Positions 4,558-27,058 of a DNA stretch of 28,061 bases are shown here, one piece after another. This stretch comes from a virus. A model generated the notes under the pieces. The model saw only the letters and a program-made list of their open reading frames with translations. It was not told the DNA's origin and searched no databases. How positions within the stretch are numbered: the stretch's first letter is position 1; each line of letters begins with the position of its first letter. The position numbers were made by a program, and so were the translations under genes. Location of the stretch: the IMG/VR virus record IMGVR_UViG_3300028025_003535, positions 1 through 28,061 of that record. One strand, written 5' to 3'.

Positions 4558-5523
4558 TTAGTTAGCACCAATGCTTGATGCTGACTCGATACGGCGGAGC
4601 GATGCTTCGCGGAAGCGACCATAGCCACCCAACCAGTACCAACCCAATGGCTGCAAGCGCATGAGGAGGTCGGTTACGTTGCCACGGACAATCTTCGGTA
4701 CTGCACCGTTTCCGTCCTGTACGCTGTACGCCTTTGCAAGAGCCTGACGACCCATGATGTGCGTGCAATACGCGTCGATTGAACCAGTTGTGCTGGTACC
4801 GTTCGATGCGTTGGTGAATACCTTTGCGCGTGGGGTTTCGATAAAACGTACGGATTCGAACAAGCCGATTTCGCCGTTGTAGATTCCCTCTGGGTTGACG
4901 TAGTTAGCTGGCGTACGCCATGCTGCTGCGTCAGTTGCCGAACGGAAGTCGTACGAAACGTCTGGGTGGATAAAGCCGATGTATGAACCGTTGAAGGTCG
5001 CTACGTTTGCACTACGCAACTGTGCGACGGTCTTACGAACGTCGTCAGCGGCAAGTACGTCATCAGCCGAGATTGACTCACGGCTTGTTGGTGTGCTTGA
5101 ACCACCAGTTGCGTAGATAACGTTGGTTCCACCAGCAAGAACTTCACGGACAACCTGGTCGATTGAATCGCCTGCGTTGTATCCGATGATGTTTGCTGCT
5201 GCTGAGTCAACATCCAAGAACGCTGTTCCACGCAACTTGGCGGTGGTTACTACTGCGTTACCGTATTCGTTGAGAGTTACGGTTACTTGGCTGTCGGACA
5301 ATGCTGTTGGGGTTACGTCGGTAACTTCGTTCAACGTTGACGTTGCTGCTGCAATGTCGCTGAAGATGGTGAATGTTACGCCTGTACCTGGCATTGCCTG
5401 CTGTACTGGTTGTACGTCTGCTGCCTGGTCGAACAAGAGTTCTGAACGCAACGCGAAATACGCGAGACGGTCAAATGCTACCTGGTCTACGGACAGTGAC
5501 GAGAGTTGGGTTTCGCCTGCCAT
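4558..5523 (-). CDS. Major capsid protein, N4 gp56 family
   Basis: 321 aa, starting MAGETQLSSLSVDQVAFDRL with AAGGA 9 bases upstream. It forms the icosahedral shell (HK97-like fold). Recognisable family features are VTFTIFSDIAAATSTLNEVT near 50-70, the VTVTLNEYGNAVVTTAKLRG strand-helix near 80-100, YIGFIHPDVSYDFRS near 181-195, and the C-terminal PKIVRGNVTDLLMRLQPLGW block. Length is in the usual range for the N4-gp56 group. The scaffold gene lies directly upstream and a terminator directly downstream, a typical arrangement for a highly expressed capsid gene. It supports a podovirus-like or related head. Confidence 0.93.
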   Translation of the reverse strand: MAGETQLSSLSVDQVAFDRLAYFALRSELLFDQAADVQPVQQAMPGTGVTFTIFSDIAAATSTLNEVTDVTPTALSDSQVTVTLNEYGNAVVTTAKLRGTAFLDVDSAAANIIGYNAGDSIDQVVREVLAGGTNVIYATGGSSTPTSRESISADDVLAADDVRKTVAQLRSANVATFNGSYIGFIHPDVSYDFRSATDAAAWRTPANYVNPEGIYNGEIGLFESVRFIETPRAKVFTNASNGTSTTGSIDAYCTHIMGRQALAKAYSVQDGNGAVPKIVRGNVTDLLMRLQPLGWYWLGGYGRFREASLRRIESASSIGAN

Positions 5524-14880: not shown

Positions 14881-16704
14881 TTATAGTCTTCCCCCTAGTG
14901 AAAGAACCGCTCCTGGAGTGTTTGGTTGTTGTGCTACTGCAGCGTTACCACCACCAAGTTGTGCGAGTAGCCCTTGGATGTTTGGTGGACCTGCAGGTGG
15001 TGCTGCTTGCATCTCTGCACCCATTCCTGGCATAGCAAGACCTGGCATTGTTTCTGGTGCGCCTTGTGGTGCCATAGCTGCTTGGCGTTCTTGTGCGCGT
15101 TGCTGTGTCATTTGTACTGCTTGATAGATTGGGACGTTTTTTTCGATGGTGAGCATTGTGAGATACGCCAAATCGTCTGGCTGATAAGGTCCGTTAGGGT
15201 CAGCGGCTTGGGTCTGTATTGAGGACAGTAGTGCAGCTTCCATGGACTCAGCAGTAATGCGGTCTTTTTCCAGTTCGGGGTCTGTGATGAGTGGGTCAGC
15301 TTCGCGAGCAGATTCTTTAGACATAAGCCCAGTGCCAAGACGCTGACCGAGACCAACGATAAGACCGTTAACGTCCGAACCAGACGACGGATAGTTGACA
15401 TAATGGAAATCAGTTTCGAAAGTTTTGTTTGGTACATAGTGTGTCATTCCCCCTGATACTCGTCCTGGGATAAAGAATGATTTCTTTTGGTTACCCCAAT
15501 ATGCTTTTTCAATTCCGATAGCAATCTTATCTTCTTCGTAGAGTGCTTGTTCAAATACTGCTTGTGCTTCTTGTACACGGAAGTCAACTGTTGCTGACAG
15601 TACGTTTTCGCCTCTGCGTCCTGTACGAATGTTGGTTCCTGATTCGCCACCGAACTCTGCAGGGATTGCACCTTCAAGTCGCTCTTGTCGTTCCAAGCGG
15701 TCAAGTGCTGTGTCGGTTTTGTAGCCAGGGTTGGTCTGCAACTGTTGAATGTCGCCGCCCTTAACTACACCAAGTTGTCCTGTTTTGCCGTCAGCAAGCT
15801 GAATAATTTCAGGGTTTTCTCCTGGGCGTGATACAAGGTATTCGTCTGGGAAGATGCCGCGTTCGATAGCGATTTCGGTGAGTGCTTGCAAGCGTGCGCG
15901 GGTGAAGTACATTCCGAGGATGCCGTCGTATTGTCCGCGTGGCTGGTCTAGTGTGATGCGTGATGGGACTACGGCTAGTGGCATGCCTGTGCGGTTCGGG
16001 ATGCGTTCTAGTTCTACGGTTTCTAAACCTGCACGTTCTGGTGGTGTGAGTCCTTCAGCGAGTGGGGCTCCCATGACGGCGATAACGATTTCTTGGTCGT
16101 CGACATATTCGAGGATGGTGAATTTGGTGTCGAAGGTGAGTTTGCCCATGCGGAGTTTTCCGATGACTTGTTCACCGTAATAGTCGATAAGCCATTGTGC
16201 GGTTTTGGTGTAGGTGAAGATGCAGTCGTCTGGGACTAGGTTGTCTGGGTCTTCGGATGGTGCAGCGTAGGTGTCTAGTGGGTTGCGTACTGCCCATGTT
16301 GGTTGTAGTTTGCGGAAGTCTGGGCGCAGCATTACTGGGCTTGATGAGTATGCGAGGAAGTGGCGTGCGCGGCGGCGCATCTTCAGGTTCATCTTGTTGT
16401 GGTCCCAATAGGAGAGAACTACTTTTTTGCGTAGTCGTGCCATTTCTTGGGAGTCAAGGTTGCCTTGTTTTACTGGCGGGAAAAATGGCATCGGCATCGT
16501 TGATGCAATACGCATCGATGTTTGGTCCAAGCCTTGGATGAGTAGGTTCGCTACGTTTGTGCGTGCGTTGCGGTCTAGTTCTGAGAGTGGGATTACTACG
16601 TCGCCATTGGCTAGGTCGCGTACTTCGCGCATGCGACGCATGACTGGTCCTTGTGCTTCGCGTCGTGCGTTGTAAAGTTCGACAATTTGTTCGACGGATA
16701 GCAC
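14881..16704 (-). CDS. Portal protein
   Basis: 607 aa with a GTG start at 16702-16704 and AAGGAG 10 bases upstream. The portal forms the dodecameric ring at one capsid vertex through which DNA is packaged and ejected. The N-terminus (MLSVEQIVELYNARREAQGP) and the following RRMREVRDLANGDVVIPLSE are typical of podovirus-like portals, as is the middle RVQEAQAVFEQALYEEDKIA clamp/stem-like helix near 390. The C-terminal about 70 residues are Ala/Gly/Pro/Gln-rich (MTQQRAQERQAAMAPQGAPE) and look disordered. It sits directly downstream of the terminase gene, the normal order in a packaging module. Confidence 0.9.
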   Translation of the reverse strand: MLSVEQIVELYNARREAQGPVMRRMREVRDLANGDVVIPLSELDRNARTNVANLLIQGLDQTSMRIASTMPMPFFPPVKQGNLDSQEMARLRKKVVLSYWDHNKMNLKMRRRARHFLAYSSSPVMLRPDFRKLQPTWAVRNPLDTYAAPSEDPDNLVPDDCIFTYTKTAQWLIDYYGEQVIGKLRMGKLTFDTKFTILEYVDDQEIVIAVMGAPLAEGLTPPERAGLETVELERIPNRTGMPLAVVPSRITLDQPRGQYDGILGMYFTRARLQALTEIAIERGIFPDEYLVSRPGENPEIIQLADGKTGQLGVVKGGDIQQLQTNPGYKTDTALDRLERQERLEGAIPAEFGGESGTNIRTGRRGENVLSATVDFRVQEAQAVFEQALYEEDKIAIGIEKAYWGNQKKSFFIPGRVSGGMTHYVPNKTFETDFHYVNYPSSGSDVNGLIVGLGQRLGTGLMSKESAREADPLITDPELEKDRITAESMEAALLSSIQTQAADPNGPYQPDDLAYLTMLTIEKNVPIYQAVQMTQQRAQERQAAMAPQGAPETMPGLAMPGMGAEMQAAPPAGPPNIQGLLAQLGGGNAAVAQQPNTPGAVLSLGGRL

Positions 16705-16752: not shown

Positions 16753-18735
16753 TTAGCCTTGTAGCATCCATGTTGGTCGCCATTGTCGTGGTGGGAGTTT
16801 GACTCCGCTTACGTTGGGGAAGTGTAGTTCTGCGAACCAGTTTGCCATTACTAGGTCGGTGCCGTTCTTTTTGTCTGGTGTCCATTTGGTAAGTTCGTCT
16901 ACGAGTGCGAGTGTTTTCCAGTTGCCTCGCATTGATGGGAGTCGGACTGCGCCAGCGCGGTAGAGCGGTGGGAGTAGTGCTTCGATACCGAGTTTTTCGT
17001 CGAATTTGTTTCGGTGTGTGGTGTGCGGGATGATGTTGACCATCTGTCGGGTTTGCCATTTGCGAACGAAGTCGTGGGCTAACAGGAATCGTTGTGCGGC
17101 GTTGACCTCTACCACGATATGTGATACAGGGTAGCCGTATGCGAAGGCACGGTTAGTCCAGTCTTCAAGTAACCCTGAATATGTTTGTGATGTGGTGTCA
17201 TAACCCAAGAGTTCTTCAGCTGTGAGCTTGACTCGCTCAACATCAATGAGGTATCGCAGGTTGGTGTGGGGTTGGTAAAGCCACCATTGGATTCCCCAGA
17301 ACTGTGACGGCGATGGGTCGACCGTGATGATGGATATTACGGGTGGTCCGAGACCTTCAGGGATTTGTCCTGGGAGTCTGTCGTTGTCGATGCATCCTTG
17401 GTAGAGAACTCCGTCTGGTCCTAGTCCGCCTGTGACCCAAACACGGGAAATGAGGTTGGCATCGTCTGCATCGTCTTCTTGTTGGTAGACAACTTTGAAG
17501 GTTCGCGGGTTCGAGTAGCGGATGTAGGACAAATCTTTCCAGGAGAGCCGTTGAGGGTCTAGAAGTGGTCCTTCAGGGTAGGGTTTTGCGTCGTATCGGC
17601 GTGATGCTGGACCTGTGTCTAGTTCTTCATAGTATGCCTTGTATACGATGTGCTTGTATTTCTGGCTTTTGGATGGTTCTGTGGCGGCTAGTGACTCTGG
17701 GGTGGTCATGTCCATGCCGTCGTAGTCGGTTTCGTCGACATCGTAAGAGATTTTGTTGAGGCAGTGGGCGTATAGGTCGCCTGTTCCTAGTCTTTGTCCT
17801 ACGACAGCTAGTAGTCCTGCGGGGTCTACACGGGCTTCGGCTACTTGGTCCCAGCGTTCTAGCATTTTGTCGCGTGTAGCACCTTCACGGGCGTTATCTA
17901 CTGATGCAACGTCGTCAAAAAGGCAAAGGTCGGCACGATGTCCGATGTATTCTGAGTCAATACCATAGGCACGAACGGTTGGTTCTTTGTTATCTAGCCC
18001 GTTTCCGTCTAGTTGTTCTACTACGAACTCTTCTGCACGCCACAATGCACCTTTGTCGGAGGGTTTGAACCTGCCGTAGTCGATAGATAGGCATCCTTCA
18101 GCGTTTACTGCTAGTCCTTTTTTGACTATTTCTGGGTCTGGGTGGATTGGTTGTGGGCGTTCTAAGGTTTCACGGATGCGTCGTGAGTATTGTTTTGCCA
18201 TGGCTTGTGAGATTGAGCCAATCATGACGCGGATTGAGCGGTTGCGTACGATTGCCCATACTGCAACATCGTGGAACAGGGTGGATTTGCCTGCGCCTGG
18301 TGGGACGTTGAGTACGACGAATTCTTTTTCTGGGTGTTCTAATAGTTCTACGAGGGTGACTGCGGCTTCTACTTGCCATGGTGAGGGAACGCGACCTAGG
18401 TAGTAGCGGCGGAAGAAGTCGAAGTCTTCTAAACCGCGTTGTGCTTCTGGGCAGAGTCGTCCTAATGGGATGGCTGGGGGTAGGTTGGTGGCTTCGTCTA
18501 GGTCTTGTTCGTATTGTTTGTGTTGTACACCACCGCCTTTGCCGCGGACACGGGTGGCTTCCAAGACGGCTTGGTCTAGTTTTGCTTTGGCTGCTTTGGA
18601 TTTCGCTAACCAGTTTGAGCCTGTGTTGATGTGTACGCCTGCGATGCGTGAGGCTTCGGTGATTGATGAGCCTGCTGCTATGGCTGCGAAGAATCTTGCT
18701 TTGTCTTCTGGTGCGACTTTGCGTTTGGTTCCCAT
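16753..18735 (-). CDS. terL: Terminase large subunit with N-terminal helix-turn-helix
   Basis: 660 aa. It is the ATP-driven motor and nuclease that cuts and packages phage DNA. Walker A is NVPPGAGKST at 143-152 and Walker B is DLCLFDDVAS at 269-278. The RNase H-like nuclease domain has its acidic residues at D473 (IITVDPS), E543 (IVVEVNAAQR) and D627 (KNGTDLVMANW). Residues about 10-50 (AAIAAGSSITEASRIAGVHI) form a helix-turn-helix of the type usually found in the separate small subunit, and no small subunit gene is adjacent. The portal gene follows. The start has only a weak ribosome site; 12 bases separate it from the upstream gene. Confidence 0.93.
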   Translation of the reverse strand: MGTKRKVAPEDKARFFAAIAAGSSITEASRIAGVHINTGSNWLAKSKAAKAKLDQAVLEATRVRGKGGGVQHKQYEQDLDEATNLPPAIPLGRLCPEAQRGLEDFDFFRRYYLGRVPSPWQVEAAVTLVELLEHPEKEFVVLNVPPGAGKSTLFHDVAVWAIVRNRSIRVMIGSISQAMAKQYSRRIRETLERPQPIHPDPEIVKKGLAVNAEGCLSIDYGRFKPSDKGALWRAEEFVVEQLDGNGLDNKEPTVRAYGIDSEYIGHRADLCLFDDVASVDNAREGATRDKMLERWDQVAEARVDPAGLLAVVGQRLGTGDLYAHCLNKISYDVDETDYDGMDMTTPESLAATEPSKSQKYKHIVYKAYYEELDTGPASRRYDAKPYPEGPLLDPQRLSWKDLSYIRYSNPRTFKVVYQQEDDADDANLISRVWVTGGLGPDGVLYQGCIDNDRLPGQIPEGLGPPVISIITVDPSPSQFWGIQWWLYQPHTNLRYLIDVERVKLTAEELLGYDTTSQTYSGLLEDWTNRAFAYGYPVSHIVVEVNAAQRFLLAHDFVRKWQTRQMVNIIPHTTHRNKFDEKLGIEALLPPLYRAGAVRLPSMRGNWKTLALVDELTKWTPDKKNGTDLVMANWFAELHFPNVSGVKLPPRQWRPTWMLQG

Positions 18736-20724: not shown

Positions 20725-20776
20725 GCGGACAGGCGTACGGGCGGACAGGTGTCCGCATAGCGGACAGGCGGACAGG
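20725..20776 (+). repeat. GCGGACAGG iterons with central inverted repeat
   Basis: Four direct copies of GCGGACAGG start at 20725, 20741, 20760 and 20768. The second copy is also half of a perfect inverted repeat, GCGGACA-GG-TGTCCGC (20741-20756). Clustered direct repeats of 9 bases resemble initiator or repressor binding iterons. Confidence 0.7.
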
Positions 20777-20983
20777 TGCACCCCTACCTACCTAGCCGAA
20801 AAGCAAAAGGGGCTACCCCCTCGCCGCAGGTATACAAGTTAGATACAAGTAGAGCATGAGCAAGGTCGCCTAGCTGTGTGTGTCGCTGTGTGTGTGATGG
20901 TTTACCGTGTTGTTATCGTGTTTTGTGTTGGGTGATATATAACGGATATATGTAAAGTATTCTACGAATGAGAGAGTATTTGT

Positions 20984-20997
20984 ATCACATATGTGAT
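20984..20997. promoter_or_regulatory. Perfect palindrome ATCACATATGTGAT upstream of early genes
   Basis: A 14-base perfect inverted repeat 45 bases before the first rightward ATG. It uses the same GTGAT/ATCAC half-sites as 20699-20710 but in the opposite arrangement. Its place within the presumed early promoter region suggests an operator. Confidence 0.45.
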
Positions 20998-21041
20998 TTA
21001 ATAGAGCTAGTAAGTACAACTACTAGACACAAGGGGAATAT

Positions 21042-21242
21042 ATGAACGGGAGCAAGCTAACCGCCGAACATATCGGTTACATATGCCAAGAATACATGGA
21101 GCCGCAATTAGTACGCGCGCAAGCCATGCGGGCGAAGAGCGAGACAGGCTCACTATATGGCAACGTATGTGATGACCAAATAAAGAAAATTACGGAGATA
21201 TTCGTAGCCGTTGGGTATTGGCAAGAGCGGAGCGGCAACTAA
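21042..21242 (+). CDS. 66-aa early protein, first gene of the rightward block
   Basis: ATG preceded by AAGGGGAATAT, a strong ribosome site. The product (MNGSKLTAEHIGYICQEYME onward) is soluble and helical, with a KKITEIFVAVGYWQERSGN C-terminus and no recognised domain. Its TAA overlaps the next ATG (TAATG). The upstream stretch shares a CTAGACA...AAGGGG layout with three other gene starts in this block. As the first gene after the control region it should be among the earliest expressed; function unknown. Confidence 0.75.
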   Translation: MNGSKLTAEHIGYICQEYMEPQLVRAQAMRAKSETGSLYGNVCDDQIKKITEIFVAVGYWQERSGN

Positions 21243-21430: not shown

Positions 21431-21615
21431 TGACACGCAGAGACTACCAACTAATAGCGGACACTCTCGCGCAACATAACCGCGAAGCCAACGAACGCGG
21501 GCGACAATTTGAAGCGGGCGCGGTGGCGGGCATAGCTTACGAATTGGCAACGAAACTACAGGCAGAAAACCCAAGGTTTAGCCGCGACACTTTTCTAGGG
21601 GCTTGCGGGCTTTAA
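21430..21615 (+). CDS. 61-aa conserved actinophage protein (MTRRDY type)
   Basis: Starts MTRRDYQLIADTLAQHNREA and ends PRFSRDTFLGACGL. Proteins with an MTR.DY..IA start and an NPRFDR..FL.ACG end are widespread small actinophage products with no assigned function; this is a full-length member. The start overlaps the previous stop (TAATG). Its 3' end carries the first arm of a CTAGGGG hairpin. Confidence 0.85.
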   Translation: MTRRDYQLIADTLAQHNREANERGRQFEAGAVAGIAYELATKLQAENPRFSRDTFLGACGL

Positions 21616-21663
21616 TCGGGTACCCCTAGCGCCGCGGGCGTGACGTTCAATCGTAACTAGGGG
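21595..21663 (+). promoter_or_regulatory. Mutually exclusive CTAGGGG/CCCCTAG hairpins
   Basis: CTAGGGG at 21595-21601, its complement CCCCTAG at 21623-21629, and CTAGGGG again at 21657-21663. The central arm can pair with either flank, so two alternative stems exclude each other just upstream of the 284-aa gene. This is the layout of an attenuator or switch, though no T-run follows either stem. Confidence 0.4.
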
Positions 21664-21681
21664 GCTATACAGGTAGTACAC

Positions 21682-21714
21682 TGTATTACAGTAAGACATA
21701 TAACTAACAAGGGG
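21682..21714 (+). promoter_or_regulatory. Repeated leader/promoter element, copy A
   Basis: TGTATTACAGTAAGACATAT (21682-21701) followed by AACTAACAAGGGG. It matches copy B at 23656-23689 at most positions, including the AGACATAT core and the AACAA.GGGG ribosome site. CATATAAC could serve as a -10 box. It serves the 284-aa gene that starts at 21720. Confidence 0.55.
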
Positions 21715-21719
21715 AATAC

Positions 21720-22574
21720 ATGCAGACAATAACAATAAGTAAGCGGGTACCGAATCTATCGGTAGCTCTAGAGTCTCGCGCAGACGCCATGGCAAGTGTT
21801 CTACACGACACTAACCGCGAATCATTAAAGGCGGCGCGGGTAGCTTGGGCAACATTCAGAGAGTCTAAGGGCTTTAAATATGACGCCCCGAAACTATTCA
21901 CCTACCCCGCAAGCCAAGCCAAGCTAGGTAAATCTAAAGAGTTTACGGTAGGGCTAACGTTACAACACGCCGCGGTAGCGGGCGTAGAGACATGCCCTTG
22001 GCGCGGCGAATGCGCGCGTATGTGTGTGCTAGATGGCGGTAATGGACGCTATGCGAACACGCAAAAGGGGCGCGACATTAAAACACAATTTTTGCACCAA
22101 TACCCCGTGGCATTTACGCGGCTACTACTTGAAGAGCTACGCGGACTAGCCGCTAAATATGACCGCGTCTTAGTCCGTTTAAACGTGAATTCGGATTTAC
22201 GGTGGCACCGAATCCTACCCGCGCTAGTAGACGGTCAGCTATTCCCTAACGTGTATTTTTACGATTACACGAAGAATGCCGCGGTGCTTAGCGGATGGGG
22301 AATGGTGGCGGCACATTATCGCGCGGTATATTCAGTGAACGAATCAAGCGACATAGACAAGGTACGCGCATTCGTTGCCCGTGGCGGTACCGCCGCCATC
22401 GTGACAACACGCAACAAGAACACGCCGCCGCCGTCCACGTTTATGGGCTTACCCGTGCTAGACGGTGATGCCACCGATAACCGCTACGACGAACGCGGCG
22501 CATGGGTAGACCTATCCGCCAAGGGTAAAGCTAGGGCGCTAATCGGTAAATCTGAATTCGTTCGGGCGATATAG
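21720..22574 (+). CDS. Gp88/DUF7227-like phage protein with three-Cys motif
   Basis: 284 aa, start MQTITISKRVPNLSVALESR with AAGGGGAATAC upstream. The Cys triad is C92, C98 and C102 (TCPWRGECARMC), followed by RYANTQKGRD, then RLNVNSDLRW at 153-162, FYDYTKN near 180-186, YSVNESS near 204-210 and VLDGDATDNRYD near 246-257. This order (GLTLAHA-like, CP...C..xC, RLN..SD.RW, FYDYTK, S.NE, DGD..D.R) defines a phage family I know under the Gp88 or DUF7227 labels. Its biochemical activity is unproven; the conserved Cys and acidic residues suggest a metal or Fe-S site and an enzyme. It is the largest gene of the early block and has its own leader. Confidence 0.8.
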   Translation: MQTITISKRVPNLSVALESRADAMASVLHDTNRESLKAARVAWATFRESKGFKYDAPKLFTYPASQAKLGKSKEFTVGLTLQHAAVAGVETCPWRGECARMCVLDGGNGRYANTQKGRDIKTQFLHQYPVAFTRLLLEELRGLAAKYDRVLVRLNVNSDLRWHRILPALVDGQLFPNVYFYDYTKNAAVLSGWGMVAAHYRAVYSVNESSDIDKVRAFVARGGTAAIVTTRNKNTPPPSTFMGLPVLDGDATDNRYDERGAWVDLSAKGKARALIGKSEFVRAI

Positions 22575-22585
22575 GAGGGGTGACC

Positions 22586-22819
22586 GTGAACCATTACAAG
22601 TATTTAAACATATCATGCCCTAAATGCGGGGCTATCGCGGGCGAATATTGCCACCCGAAAATAGACGGAGACGAACCGAACGCGCAACGATACGCGCAAT
22701 GTGTAGAGCGTTTACGCGAATTTATGCGGCAACATACCGCGACATCTTGCGGGCAATGCATCCAAGAGCTAACAACTATCCAACACTGGCGACACACTGA
22801 CAAGGAGCTAACACGATGA
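22586..22819 (+). CDS. Zinc-finger-like early protein (77 aa)
   Basis: The GTG at 22586 is chosen because AGGAGGGG (22573-22580) lies at proper spacing; the in-frame GTG at 22580 would overlap that site. The start region reads NHYKYLNISCPKCGAIAGEY followed by CHP, a CPxCG...G.YCH motif typical of small phage zinc ribbons, with a second CGQC pair near residue 55. It may bind nucleic acid or a host protein. Its TGA overlaps the next ATG. Confidence 0.75.
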   Translation: MNHYKYLNISCPKCGAIAGEYCHPKIDGDEPNAQRYAQCVERLREFMRQHTATSCGQCIQELTTIQHWRHTDKELTR

Positions 22820-22995
22820 CAACACTAGATGCATTAGGTATCGCGGGCGCGGCTATCTGCTTATCATTCCCGCTATGGGGCGCGTACATATTGCGCGCAT
22901 ATCTTGACAGTAGACCAACACGCGCGGAGCGGTGGCACCGTAACCATGAGAACGTGCTACGCCGTAGAGAGCAGATAAACCGCCGCGGATGGTAG
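22816..22995 (+). CDS. 59-aa single-pass membrane protein
   Basis: ATG overlaps the previous stop (ATGA) and AAGGAG lies upstream. Residues about 6-26 (LGIAGAAICLSFPLWGAYIL) form one transmembrane helix, followed by an Arg-rich cytoplasmic-type tail (RRREQINRRGW). This topology, short N-terminus and strongly basic C-terminus, fits a small inner-membrane protein. A holin is conceivable but the early, non-lysis context argues against it. Function unknown. Confidence 0.7.
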   Translation: MTTLDALGIAGAAICLSFPLWGAYILRAYLDSRPTRAERWHRNHENVLRRREQINRRGW

Positions 22996-23022
22996 CTGTA
23001 ATCCCGTACCGCGTAGGCGGCG

Positions 23023-23088
23023 CGTCATTCACGATGACGGCGGGAGCGACTAGGCATAACGTCTAGACAATTAAACCCAAGGAGGGTG
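23023..23088 (+). promoter_or_regulatory. Hairpin and leader element before the 49-aa gene
   Basis: CGTCAT-TCACG-ATGACG (23023-23039) is a perfect six-pair hairpin. It is followed by GTCTAGACAATTAAACCCAA (23061-23080) and GGAGG, a diverged version of the leader element at 21682 and 23656 (TAGACA, A+T stretch, AAC, then the ribosome site). Probably a further start point of transcription within the early block. Confidence 0.4.
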
Positions 23089-23092
23089 AGCA

Positions 23093-23242
23093 ATGCTAAA
23101 TAGAGAAATACTAAATATAGATATGGATATGAAGCGTAGACCCATCTACGACATAGAGCAGGATGTCTGGCAAGCTATCGCCGATGCGAACGGGCTTGAT
23201 TATGAAGACATAGCCGATGGCGACCTAGCCGAGTGGCTTTAA
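23093..23242 (+). CDS. 49-aa acidic early protein
   Basis: ATG with GGAGGGTGAGCA upstream. The product starts MLNREILNIDMDMKRRPIYD and ends DYEDIADGDLAEWL; the second half is strongly acidic. No domain recognised. It follows a 97-base gap that carries a hairpin and a leader element, so it probably heads a transcription unit. Confidence 0.65.
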   Translation: MLNREILNIDMDMKRRPIYDIEQDVWQAIADANGLDYEDIADGDLAEWL

Positions 23243-23244
23243 TC

Positions 23245-23454
23245 ATGGGCGAAATTATTATCATGGGTTTAAACGGCGGCGCGAAAGTGCTACCAATGAC
23301 CGCCACTAAACAAGAGATACTCTGCTCTATCTGTGCTATGGCTTGGGGGATTAGTAACGATGAAGATTACAAAGACCCGAAAACAAACGAATTAGTTTGC
23401 AATGGTTGCGCGTTAGACCATGAAGGAACCGACTACTACGAGGCAGGTAAATAA
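23245..23454 (+). CDS. 69-aa protein with two CxxC pairs
   Basis: The ATG at 23245 lies two bases after the previous stop; no strong ribosome site is visible, so coupling is likely and the exact start (alternatives MGLNGG or MTATKQ further in) is uncertain. CSIC and CNGC pairs about 25 residues apart (ILCSICAMAW ... LVCNGCALDH) predict a zinc-binding treble-clef or ribbon. Its TAA overlaps the next ATG. Confidence 0.65.
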   Translation: MGEIIIMGLNGGAKVLPMTATKQEILCSICAMAWGISNDEDYKDPKTNELVCNGCALDHEGTDYYEAGK

Positions 23455-23648
23455 TGGCAACGGCACAAGAATTAGCACTAAATATTGGTAAGCGCGGACA
23501 GCTTCGGGTATCGGGTACCGCGTTGACGTTCGCGGTCACGGTTACCGATGCGCGGAACCGCTACGGGAATCTTGACTACAAGGTGTCACCCGTGGACGGT
23601 AACGGCGAAGCATGGCACCAAGCTGACGCGATAATCCTTGACATCTAA
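23454..23648 (+). CDS. 64-aa small early protein
   Basis: Starts MATAQELALNIGKRGQLRVS and continues as an apparently beta-rich domain (TALTFAVTVTDARNRYGNLD, then DYKVSPVDGNGEAW). The RNRYGN..Y.VSPV.G.G..W pattern is familiar from small actinophage proteins of unknown function, suggesting a compact SH3-like or OB-like barrel. The start overlaps the upstream stop (TAATG). Confidence 0.7.
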   Translation: MATAQELALNIGKRGQLRVSGTALTFAVTVTDARNRYGNLDYKVSPVDGNGEAWHQADAIILDI

Positions 23649-23655
23649 TAATGAA

Positions 23656-23689
23656 TGTACTACGGTTAGACATATCAACAACAAAGGGG
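23656..23689 (+). promoter_or_regulatory. Repeated leader/promoter element, copy B
   Basis: TGTACTACGGTTAGACATAT (23656-23675) followed by CAACAACAAAGGGG. It is nearly identical to copy A at 21682-21714 apart from scattered substitutions and one extra A, although the genes downstream are unrelated. Selection on the DNA or RNA sequence itself is therefore likely. Confidence 0.55.
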
Positions 23690-23693
23690 AGCT

Positions 23694-24080
23694 ATGAATA
23701 AATACACAGTATCCGTGTGGAATCTAGAAAAGATTTACGCGAAATCAGAAGCTGAAGCGGTTGCAAGAATTAAAGCAGAATTTTATAACGGTTACTACCG
23801 TTGCCAAGATTTTGAATATGACGATGCTGAATTAGTAGAAGAAGAATTGACCGATGAAGATTTAGCGGTGTGGAATCTATGCAAAAGCGATGCCCCATAC
23901 CCCGACCAACCTTCATGCGAACTTGCCGATGATTTCAGCGAAGAGGGAGATGAACATTTAGTAATAACTATTTGCTCCGTATTCGTTGAAGCAGAAGACG
24001 AAGAAGAAGCAATGGTGAACGCGTCCGACTGCTTTTACTACATCAACAAAAATGAATTTGAAATACGAATCTCAGGATAA
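23694..24080 (+). CDS. 128-aa acidic protein with internal duplication
   Basis: ATG behind AAAGGGGAGCT. The sequence has two similar halves: TVSVWNLEKIYAKSEAEAVA (residues about 4-23) and VITICSVFVEAEDEEEAMVN (about 90-109), each a beta strand followed by a helix with an acidic EAEA/DEEEA stretch. The middle (DDAELVEEELTDEDLAVWNL) is extremely acidic. Such DNA-mimic-like charge is seen in some anti-restriction or anti-host proteins, but that is only a possibility. Base composition here is more A-rich than in the genes to the left. Confidence 0.75.
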   Translation: MNKYTVSVWNLEKIYAKSEAEAVARIKAEFYNGYYRCQDFEYDDAELVEEELTDEDLAVWNLCKSDAPYPDQPSCELADDFSEEGDEHLVITICSVFVEAEDEEEAMVNASDCFYYINKNEFEIRISG

Positions 24081-26026: not shown

Positions 26027-26111
26027 CTTCTTCAGGTTTACCACACACGAGAGGTGTTCTCCCAATCGGGAAGTCACACGGGCAAGGTTTACGCTCGCCT
26101 TTTTGTACCAT
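26013..26111 (-). CDS. 32-aa Cys-containing microprotein
   Basis: ATG at 26109-26111 overlaps the upstream stop (TGATG); TGA at 26013-26015. It starts MVQKGERKPCPCDFPIGRTP and ends in a run of four Asp (KPEEDDDD). Cys residues C10, C12 and C23 could bind metal. It exactly fills the gap between two coupled genes and overlaps the zinc protein start by 14 bases, which supports it as real despite its size. Confidence 0.55.
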   Translation of the reverse strand: MVQKGERKPCPCDFPIGRTPLVCGKPEEDDDD

Positions 26112-26425
26112 CAGCTGACCACGCCAAGGAAATTGTCAATCTGTTTGGCGTTCACCATTGACAAGCAACCGATATACCCTGCGGTATCTACCACGGTGTC
26201 ATGTGCCCATCTACCCTCATCTAACGCCGTCCTGAGACGAGACAGTTTGACTGACACCATGAACAAGATGGCTTGCTCAACAGTCATGTCGATACCTGTG
26301 AGCGCCTTGAAGATGTCACGGGTCTGTGTGTAATCCTCTAACGGATGAGCGTAAGCGTCATGTCTGTCGCCTGTGATGAGGCTGTGTGCTTCTAATAGAA
26401 CCTCAGCGCCCTTCATAGTTCTCAT
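26111..26425 (-). CDS. DUF6378-like phage protein
   Basis: About 104 aa from the ATG at 26423-26425 (MRTMKGAEVLLEAHSLITGD); an ATG three codons later is also possible. The pattern A..L..GDRHDAYAHPLEDY, then LTGIDMTVEQAILFMVSVKL, then SRLRTA...DTVVDTAGYIG matches DUF6378 as I know it: a GDR...Y..P..NF start, a K..R segment and a D..DIAGY helix. Members are common in phages and are unassigned. Overall helical. Longer in-frame starts run deep into the upstream gene. Confidence 0.82.
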   Translation of the reverse strand: MRTMKGAEVLLEAHSLITGDRHDAYAHPLEDYTQTRDIFKALTGIDMTVEQAILFMVSVKLSRLRTALDEGRWAHDTVVDTAGYIGCLSMVNAKQIDNFLGVVS

Positions 26426-26654
26426 CTCTGAATGGGTTACGCCACACGGTTTGGAAACTATTAGCTTCAATCTGTTCCTTCTGCTCTGCGTCTTCGTAAC
26501 ACCTGATGATATGTATGCATGGGTCTGACCCGTCAGTGAACTCTGCGTCCTCAGTAATGGACATAGGTATCCCGTCATGGGTGTAACAAACAGGCGGTGA
26601 AATCCACCCGTTGTCCATCCCAGCTTTCAACCATGTGCTGAAATCGATGAACAT
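26403..26654 (-). CDS. 83-aa conserved actinophage hypothetical
   Basis: The ATG at 26652-26654 overlaps the ssb stop (TGATG). It starts MFIDFSTWLKAGMDNGWISP and continues PVCYTHDGIPMSITEDAEFT and DGSDPCIHIIRCYEDAEQKE. The WIS.PVC.THDG.P....E, then DPC.H..R pattern recurs in actinophage genomes at this size with no known function. Four Cys/His positions (C32, H35, C54, H56 approximately) could bind metal. Confidence 0.8.
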   Translation of the reverse strand: MFIDFSTWLKAGMDNGWISPPVCYTHDGIPMSITEDAEFTDGSDPCIHIIRCYEDAEQKEQIEANSFQTVWRNPFRDENYEGR

Positions 26655-27058
26655 CAGAACGCTTCTTCGTCGCCCAAGAAAGGCACAGCACCAAACTTTT
26701 GGGTGACTTGCTTCATCGTTTGTTCGGTCTTGTCTGCGAACACAGCATTGAACCTGACTGTCAAACCCAGTTCGTCTGCCAAGATTTTTGTTGTCCACTT
26801 CTTCTCACCAGTTTTCTTATCCTCGTATGATGAGATGTCAAGCTTGCCGACAACGAACACACGGCTACCCTTTTCAATGGATGATGCTGCATGCTCTGCC
26901 ATCTGACCGAACACGGTGACATTGTGCCACACGGTTACTTTTTTTTCATCTTTACCTGATGTTGTTGCAACAGTGAACGAGCCTTGCGCTAATCCTGATG
27001 CTGTGTATTTCAGTTCGATTGGTTTGCCAGCGTTGCCGACAATGGTGATGTTGTTCAT
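26654..27058 (-). CDS. ssb: Single-stranded DNA-binding protein
   Basis: 134 aa, MNNITIVGNAGKPIELKYTA, with AGAGGAAACCAA upstream. It coats single-stranded DNA in replication and recruits partners. The OB-fold features are clear: N-terminal NNITIVGNAG, GSFTVATTSG, then WHNVTVFGQMAEHAASSIEK (about 44-63) and GSRVFVVGKLDISSYEDKKT. The C-terminus ends in an acidic tip, GDEEAF, comparable to the DDDIPF tail that binds other replication proteins in bacterial SSBs. Shorter than host SSBs because the linker is minimal. The start overlaps the 52-aa gene stop (ATGA). Confidence 0.93.
   Translation of the reverse strand: MNNITIVGNAGKPIELKYTASGLAQGSFTVATTSGKDEKKVTVWHNVTVFGQMAEHAASSIEKGSRVFVVGKLDISSYEDKKTGEKKWTTKILADELGLTVRFNAVFADKTEQTMKQVTQKFGAVPFLGDEEAF

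Follow-up and report, generated by a model that had tools for sequence, protein, structure and literature searches.

A probable SigA-type early promoter reused before unrelated genes, and a separate three-way-junction RNA between early cistrons, in a family of uncultured phages

Introduction

The early transcripts of phage T7 carry intercistronic RNase III sites, which are long irregular hairpins located before several unrelated early genes. For a DNA element repeated ahead of unrelated early genes, the closest published counterpart is the start-associated sequence (SAS) of the cluster K mycobacteriophages, a 13-bp GGGATAGGAGCCC-like element found 3-7 bp before the start codon, and the cluster K ESAS consists of 17-bp inverted repeats (PMC3203893). 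In phage HK022 the put RNAs, encoded at two put sites, comprise two stem-loops (~70 nt) and are located in operon leaders near the early promoter (PMC9378689).

The DNA analyzed here, referred to as the window, is a 28-kb IMG/VR virus fragment from a phage family with genomes of ~39-40 kb. The structural genes of the window are oriented leftward, and small genes starting at 21042 are oriented rightward; the latter are presumably early genes, judging from the gene order and the presence of the GP88 family. A first-pass annotation had reported two near-identical stretches and two weaker versions of them before unrelated early genes, and proposed a phage-specific promoter or a translation signal.

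Materials and Methods

Relatives of the window were gathered by searches with the GP88-family protein and with the terminase. A weight matrix was made from the 20-mers of the element alone, without -35 information, and used to scan 54 related loci in their early regions. As the RNA helices were misplaced in plain MAFFT alignments, the covariance model for the RNA was grown in two rounds from five close orthologues.

Results

The Window and Its Relatives

None of the annotated phage records had a DNA match to the window. The nearest annotated proteins are distant; the GP88-family protein is ~30% identical to mycobacteriophage (Mycobacterium) proteins, and the terminase is ~25-28% identical to those of Streptomyces/T7-group and other phages. 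When bacterial genomes were searched for a host, neither the terminase alignment nor one strict RNA pattern gave a match. Features of the window are listed in Table 1. Short G+C-rich direct repeats (GCGGACAGGCG) were found at 20725-20783, in the large intergenic region from which the late and early genes diverge. On the replication side, a DUF6378 protein and a single-strand binding protein are encoded by convergent genes (26111-26578 and 26654-27058), and relative L094 also has a YqaJ recombinase.

Table 1. Coordinates of genes, promoter elements and RNA structures in the window.
Feature	Position	Strand	Remarks
Major head protein	4558-5523	leftward	
Portal	14881-16704	leftward	
Large terminase	16753-18735	leftward	
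RNA copy 1 (three-way junction)	21623-21668	+	P1 CCCCTAG/CTAGGGG, two inner hairpins; compensatory changes in L003/L004/L006/L008; directly upstream of site 1
Hairpin P4 of copy 1 (ATACAG..CTGTAT)	21667-21686	+	Overlaps left part of site 1
Site 1, TGTATTACAGTAAGACATAT	21682-21701	+	-10-like TACAGT at 21687-21692; no TTGACA at 17 bp
Site-1 leader	21702-21719	+	Shine-Dalgarno AAGGGG at 21709-21714, then ATG of GP88 gene at 21720
GP88-family early gene, 284 aa	21720-22574	+	Pfam PF17338, 1.5e-34; phrog_1617; downstream of RNA copy 1 and site 1
RNA copy 2 (three-way junction)	23002-23050	+	Model R3 64.6 bits, E 6e-13; covariation; fold z -2.7
Hairpin P4 of copy 2 (CTAGGC..GTCTAG)	23050-23066	+	3' arm is the proposed weaker copy
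49-aa gene (MLNREILNID...)	23094-23243	+	Downstream of RNA copy 2; kept in L003, L004, L007, L008
Site 2, putative -35 box TTGACA	23638-23643	+	Exact, 17 bp upstream of TACGGT; same spacing in 20/34 matrix-found sites
Site 2, putative extended -10/discriminator, TGTACTACGGTTAGACATAT	23656-23675	+	-10 hexamer TACGGT at 23661-23666
Site-2 AC-rich leader	23676-23693	+	Shine-Dalgarno AAGGGG at 23684-23689, then ATG at 23694; same layout in relatives
128-aa orphan gene	23694-24080	+	Downstream of site 2; absent from L003

Site 2 and Its Relatives Have the Layout of a SigA-Type Promoter

The two stretches reported as near-identical, sites 1 and 2, were located correctly. They share 17 of 20 nucleotides and are the sole matches at three or fewer mismatches, 0.01 being expected in shuffled sequences. 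Compared over 33/34 nt they differ by three mismatches and small gaps, and both end in AAGGGG. The genes behind them are unrelated, as had been noted. L003 lacks the 128-aa gene, and its second element, the same promoter as site 2, stands before the next gene instead.

The matrix scan placed the best ~29 matches all on the early-gene strand. Among the 34 sites scoring above 15 bits, an exact TTGACA was found 17 bp upstream of TACnnT in 20 and 26 bp upstream in one; the other spacings between 8 and 30 gave none. Since the matrix held no -35 information, there is good support, for site 2 and its relatives, for reading the element as the -10 and discriminator portion of a SigA-type early promoter that continues into an AC-rich leader and a Shine-Dalgarno sequence. 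A direct scan for TTGAC[ACT]-N16-18-TAnnnT gave 50 matches on the early strand vs. 11 on the other, and 43 of the 50 were followed by a Shine-Dalgarno sequence and a start codon within 60 nt. The open reading frames downstream of the element belong to at least 18 families with no mutual similarity. The expectation that relatives would carry further copies before early genes was thereby borne out, and the proposal of a promoter common to separate early units could be upheld for site 2 and its relatives, although not for the weaker copies (see below).

A TTGACA-like -35 sequence 16-18 bp from TAnnnT, as in SigA/sigma-70 promoters, was found for site 2 (TTGACA-17-TACGGT) and not for site 1. Like extended -10 promoters of this class, the element combines TTGACA, a 17-bp spacer, TAnnnT and conserved positions -17 to -15. 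It deviates from them by an invariant C at the third -10 position, an invariant G-16, the discriminator AGACAyA and an overlapping dyad; the invariant bases of 18 non-redundant promoters include G-16, T-12, A-11, C-10 and T-7. Site 2 goes undetected in a simple sigma-70 scan, its TACGGT agreeing with TATAAT at only three of six positions. A search of 10 related records for a T7-type RNA polymerase (PF00940) gave no match, and the control genomes gave no positive either. Because of the canonical TTGACA at 17 bp, the element is probably read by a host SigA-type polymerase, given an assumed sigma preference of the host. The promoter is therefore not purely phage-specific as had been suggested; it is of an ordinary kind with phage-specific flanks, the phage-specific part being the extra conservation around the -10.

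In L043, L044, L048, L056, L073, and L082 the first early gene is preceded by a different, less common promoter type, TTGACA-N17-TATAGT with a conserved TGTAnTTGTAAGG behind it. Outside the early region, L103 (G007, ~6361, + strand) and L107 (G008, ~6489, - strand) have a promoter-like TTGACATAnGGTATCAC..GTGATAC whose -10 is covered by an inverted repeat; it precedes a gene starting MQI and is a possible operator.

The two weaker versions did not hold up. For the one at 23061-23085, TAGACA is the 3' arm of the hairpin behind a three-way-junction RNA. Its -10-like TAACGT reads CAACGC in L003 and CAATGT in L004 and is not conserved among L003, L004, and L007, and a weaker promoter at this position was dropped as TAnnnT is not conserved. 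For the version before 21042, CTAGACA reads CTAGATA, CTACTAA, and CTACACA in three relatives. The leader of the first early gene (20950-21041), with a perfect palindrome ATCACATATGTGAT at ~20985-20998, is kept in L003, L004, and L006, and the first early gene behind it differs in all four phages. From the sequences compared, the leader is fixed and the genes behind it are swapped.

A Dyad Overlaps the -10 Sequence

An imperfect 17-bp dyad, TGTAnTAC-n-GTwAnACA, is centred on -9 and extends across the -10. When every centre was tested, complementarity over eight pairs was 63% at this single centre vs. ~7-38% elsewhere, part of the dyad being forced by the TAnnnT hexamer. The element also shows conservation beyond that required of a sigma site, which suggests a candidate operator overlapping the -10. 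The element could in that case be primarily an operator, with a dimeric phage repressor or activator bound to TGTAnTACnGTAnTACA and promoter function being secondary. Such a reading would account for the invariance of G-16 and C-10, neither of which sigma needs, and for site 1 of L004, which is an almost perfect dyad. However, TTGACA is fixed at 17 bp, so promoter function is present, and a dyad operator alone was dropped for this reason. Neither did the two halves covary (-17 is C or T with the A opposite kept), nor did the gene annotation searches identify a candidate regulator gene. We regard a primarily operator function as somewhat doubtful, and retain the promoter with a possible operator.

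A Three-Way-Junction RNA Recurs Between Early Cistrons

Folding and alignment gave an RNA of ~46-50 nt in which helix P1 encloses two hairpins, P2 and P3, often followed by a hairpin P4. The helices are 4-7 bp long. The loops (GUAG or UACAG; UCRYG) and a 3' ACGAU tail are conserved; a tRNA-like (T-loop) reading of the junction was dropped, the loop being UCRYG and not UUCRA. Among 26 distinct sequences pairing was found in 97.6% of cells vs. 65% in shuffles, and both sides had changed in 14 of 15 pairs (120 cells vs. 35 in shuffles), counts biased in favour of the structure, since the model itself shaped the alignment. Four compensated pairs and 98.7% pairing were already present in the MAFFT alignment of the five starting sequences, which used no structural information. 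Sliding the partner by 1-3 columns destroyed the covariation signal. The three-way-junction structure is thus shown by covariation across the aligned sequences. Copy 2 and four relatives fold better than shuffles; copy 1 does not (z -1.1), and scored 18.6 bits with model R3 (E 0.017, filters off).

The covariance model found the RNA ~40 times in relatives. With the last model, 500 kb of related loci yielded 30 matches, each of them on the early-gene strand and 27 with E <=1.4e-5; loci fetched by RNA pattern yielded 15 strong matches, some of these records being shared with the earlier set. L008 has four copies, and more divergent ones were found in L043, L044, and L048. The start of the RNA lies 5-16 nt behind the preceding gene's stop codon in 33 of 37 copies, and where a next gene could be identified, 27-67 nt separate its start from the end of the RNA. 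From this placement the RNA therefore occupies the spacers between early cistrons. The downstream genes fall into 18 groups, one of which, with nine members, joins the GP88 and 49-aa genes that were separate in another analysis.

In Rfam 15 there was no match at gathering thresholds, and none at E up to 5 for 21590-23110. In two GP88-bearing mycobacteriophages the model found nothing convincing. A looser pattern matched seven other contigs, which the model did not confirm. A description of the RNA was not found in the open-access literature, and it is apparently undescribed.

The RNA could be a put-like antitermination signal, or a phage RNA-binding protein could use it as a translational operator. 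The conserved loops and the 3' ACGAU suggest recognition and would also suit a binding protein, and there are several copies per genome with unrelated genes behind them. As in HK022, a structured phage RNA is found in presumed early transcripts, with copies before different operons and a -10-like sequence nearby. Here, however, the copies follow directly after stop codons within operons and are not operon leaders, and a three-way junction located between cistrons is not a put RNA. A put-type role would fit less well than an intercistronic one, and we consider antitermination or operator function possible, with the balance leaning against it.

Site 1 Lacks a -35 Sequence and Follows an RNA Copy

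Site 2 has the full promoter layout; site 1 has kept the -10 and lacks the -35. This also applies to the counterparts of site 1 in L003, L004, L006, L037, and L054, in which the -10 and discriminator are retained and TTGACA is missing at 17 bp. A conserved block, ACTAGGGrCkATA, precedes site 1 and its counterparts and is the end of the RNA structure. We propose that transcription may start weakly or under regulation at site 1, or pause there. If it is no promoter at all, the -10-like sequence could pause RNA polymerase while the three-way-junction RNA and P4 fold upstream. A strong -10 with no -35 directly behind structured RNA in the window and in L003, L004, L006, L037, L054, and L068 is in line with this, as is the conserved -10-like sequence of HK022 putL, for which sigma-dependent pausing was proposed (PMC9378689). 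However, the likely upstream promoter is ~700 nt away from site 1, a distance at which sigma has usually been lost, and most RNA copies have no -10-like sequence behind them. Pausing in place of promoter function is accordingly unlikely.

A translation-start signal like the SAS is very improbable for the element as a whole: AAGGGG is located a few bases before the start codon in nearly all copies, and to that extent the proposed translation signal stands, but the conserved block stops 14-31 nt short of the start codon and is tied to a TTGACA 17 bp further upstream that translation does not need.

Discussion

We find it quite probable that the observations reflect a reused SigA-type early promoter, possibly with an operator, and a separate intercistronic three-way-junction RNA. 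The promoter would have the form TTGACA-N12-yGTnnTACnnT-wnACA, with a short AC-rich leader and then AAGGGG behind it. By reusing it before unrelated early genes, the family would let several early units fire from the host polymerase at infection, and a phage regulator may switch these promoters together via the dyad.

The element resembles the cluster K SAS and ESAS in being repeated, in its restriction to non-structural genes, in preceding different families and in the inverted repeats of a subset (PMC3203893). It is nevertheless not an SAS; sequence and position differ, and SAS is not tied to a -35 box. The ESAS inverted repeats, unlike the three-way-junction RNA, have no covariation support for RNA pairing.

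The RNA is a separate structured element between the cistrons of early operons. Because of its position after stop codons, an intercistronic role appears most likely, in mRNA processing or stability; it may give each downstream cistron a protected 5' end or insulate the next cistron. The T7 RNase III sites occupy a comparable place as structured spacers just before unrelated early genes, whereas the three short helices found here are too short for a standard RNase III duplex. Compared to the two stem-loops of the HK022 put RNAs, the present structure is also shorter.

The chances appear even that the phage family punctuates its early operons with a recurring three-way-junction RNA after stop codons, kept by structure while sequence and flanking genes change, and that this is an undescribed RNA class setting mRNA ends or recruiting a regulator for many early cistrons, alongside the shared operator-promoter.

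Altogether, what began as a vague sequence repeat resolves into two layers of regulation, both open to testing, in a family of uncultured phages. The first would be a shared early promoter, likely with an operator, that stays constant while genes are swapped behind it. The second is an RNA supported by covariation and absent from Rfam 15 that fills the spacers of early genes. If it is a processing or stability signal, this compact three-way junction would represent a phage punctuation device and a landmark for early operons in metagenomic phages.
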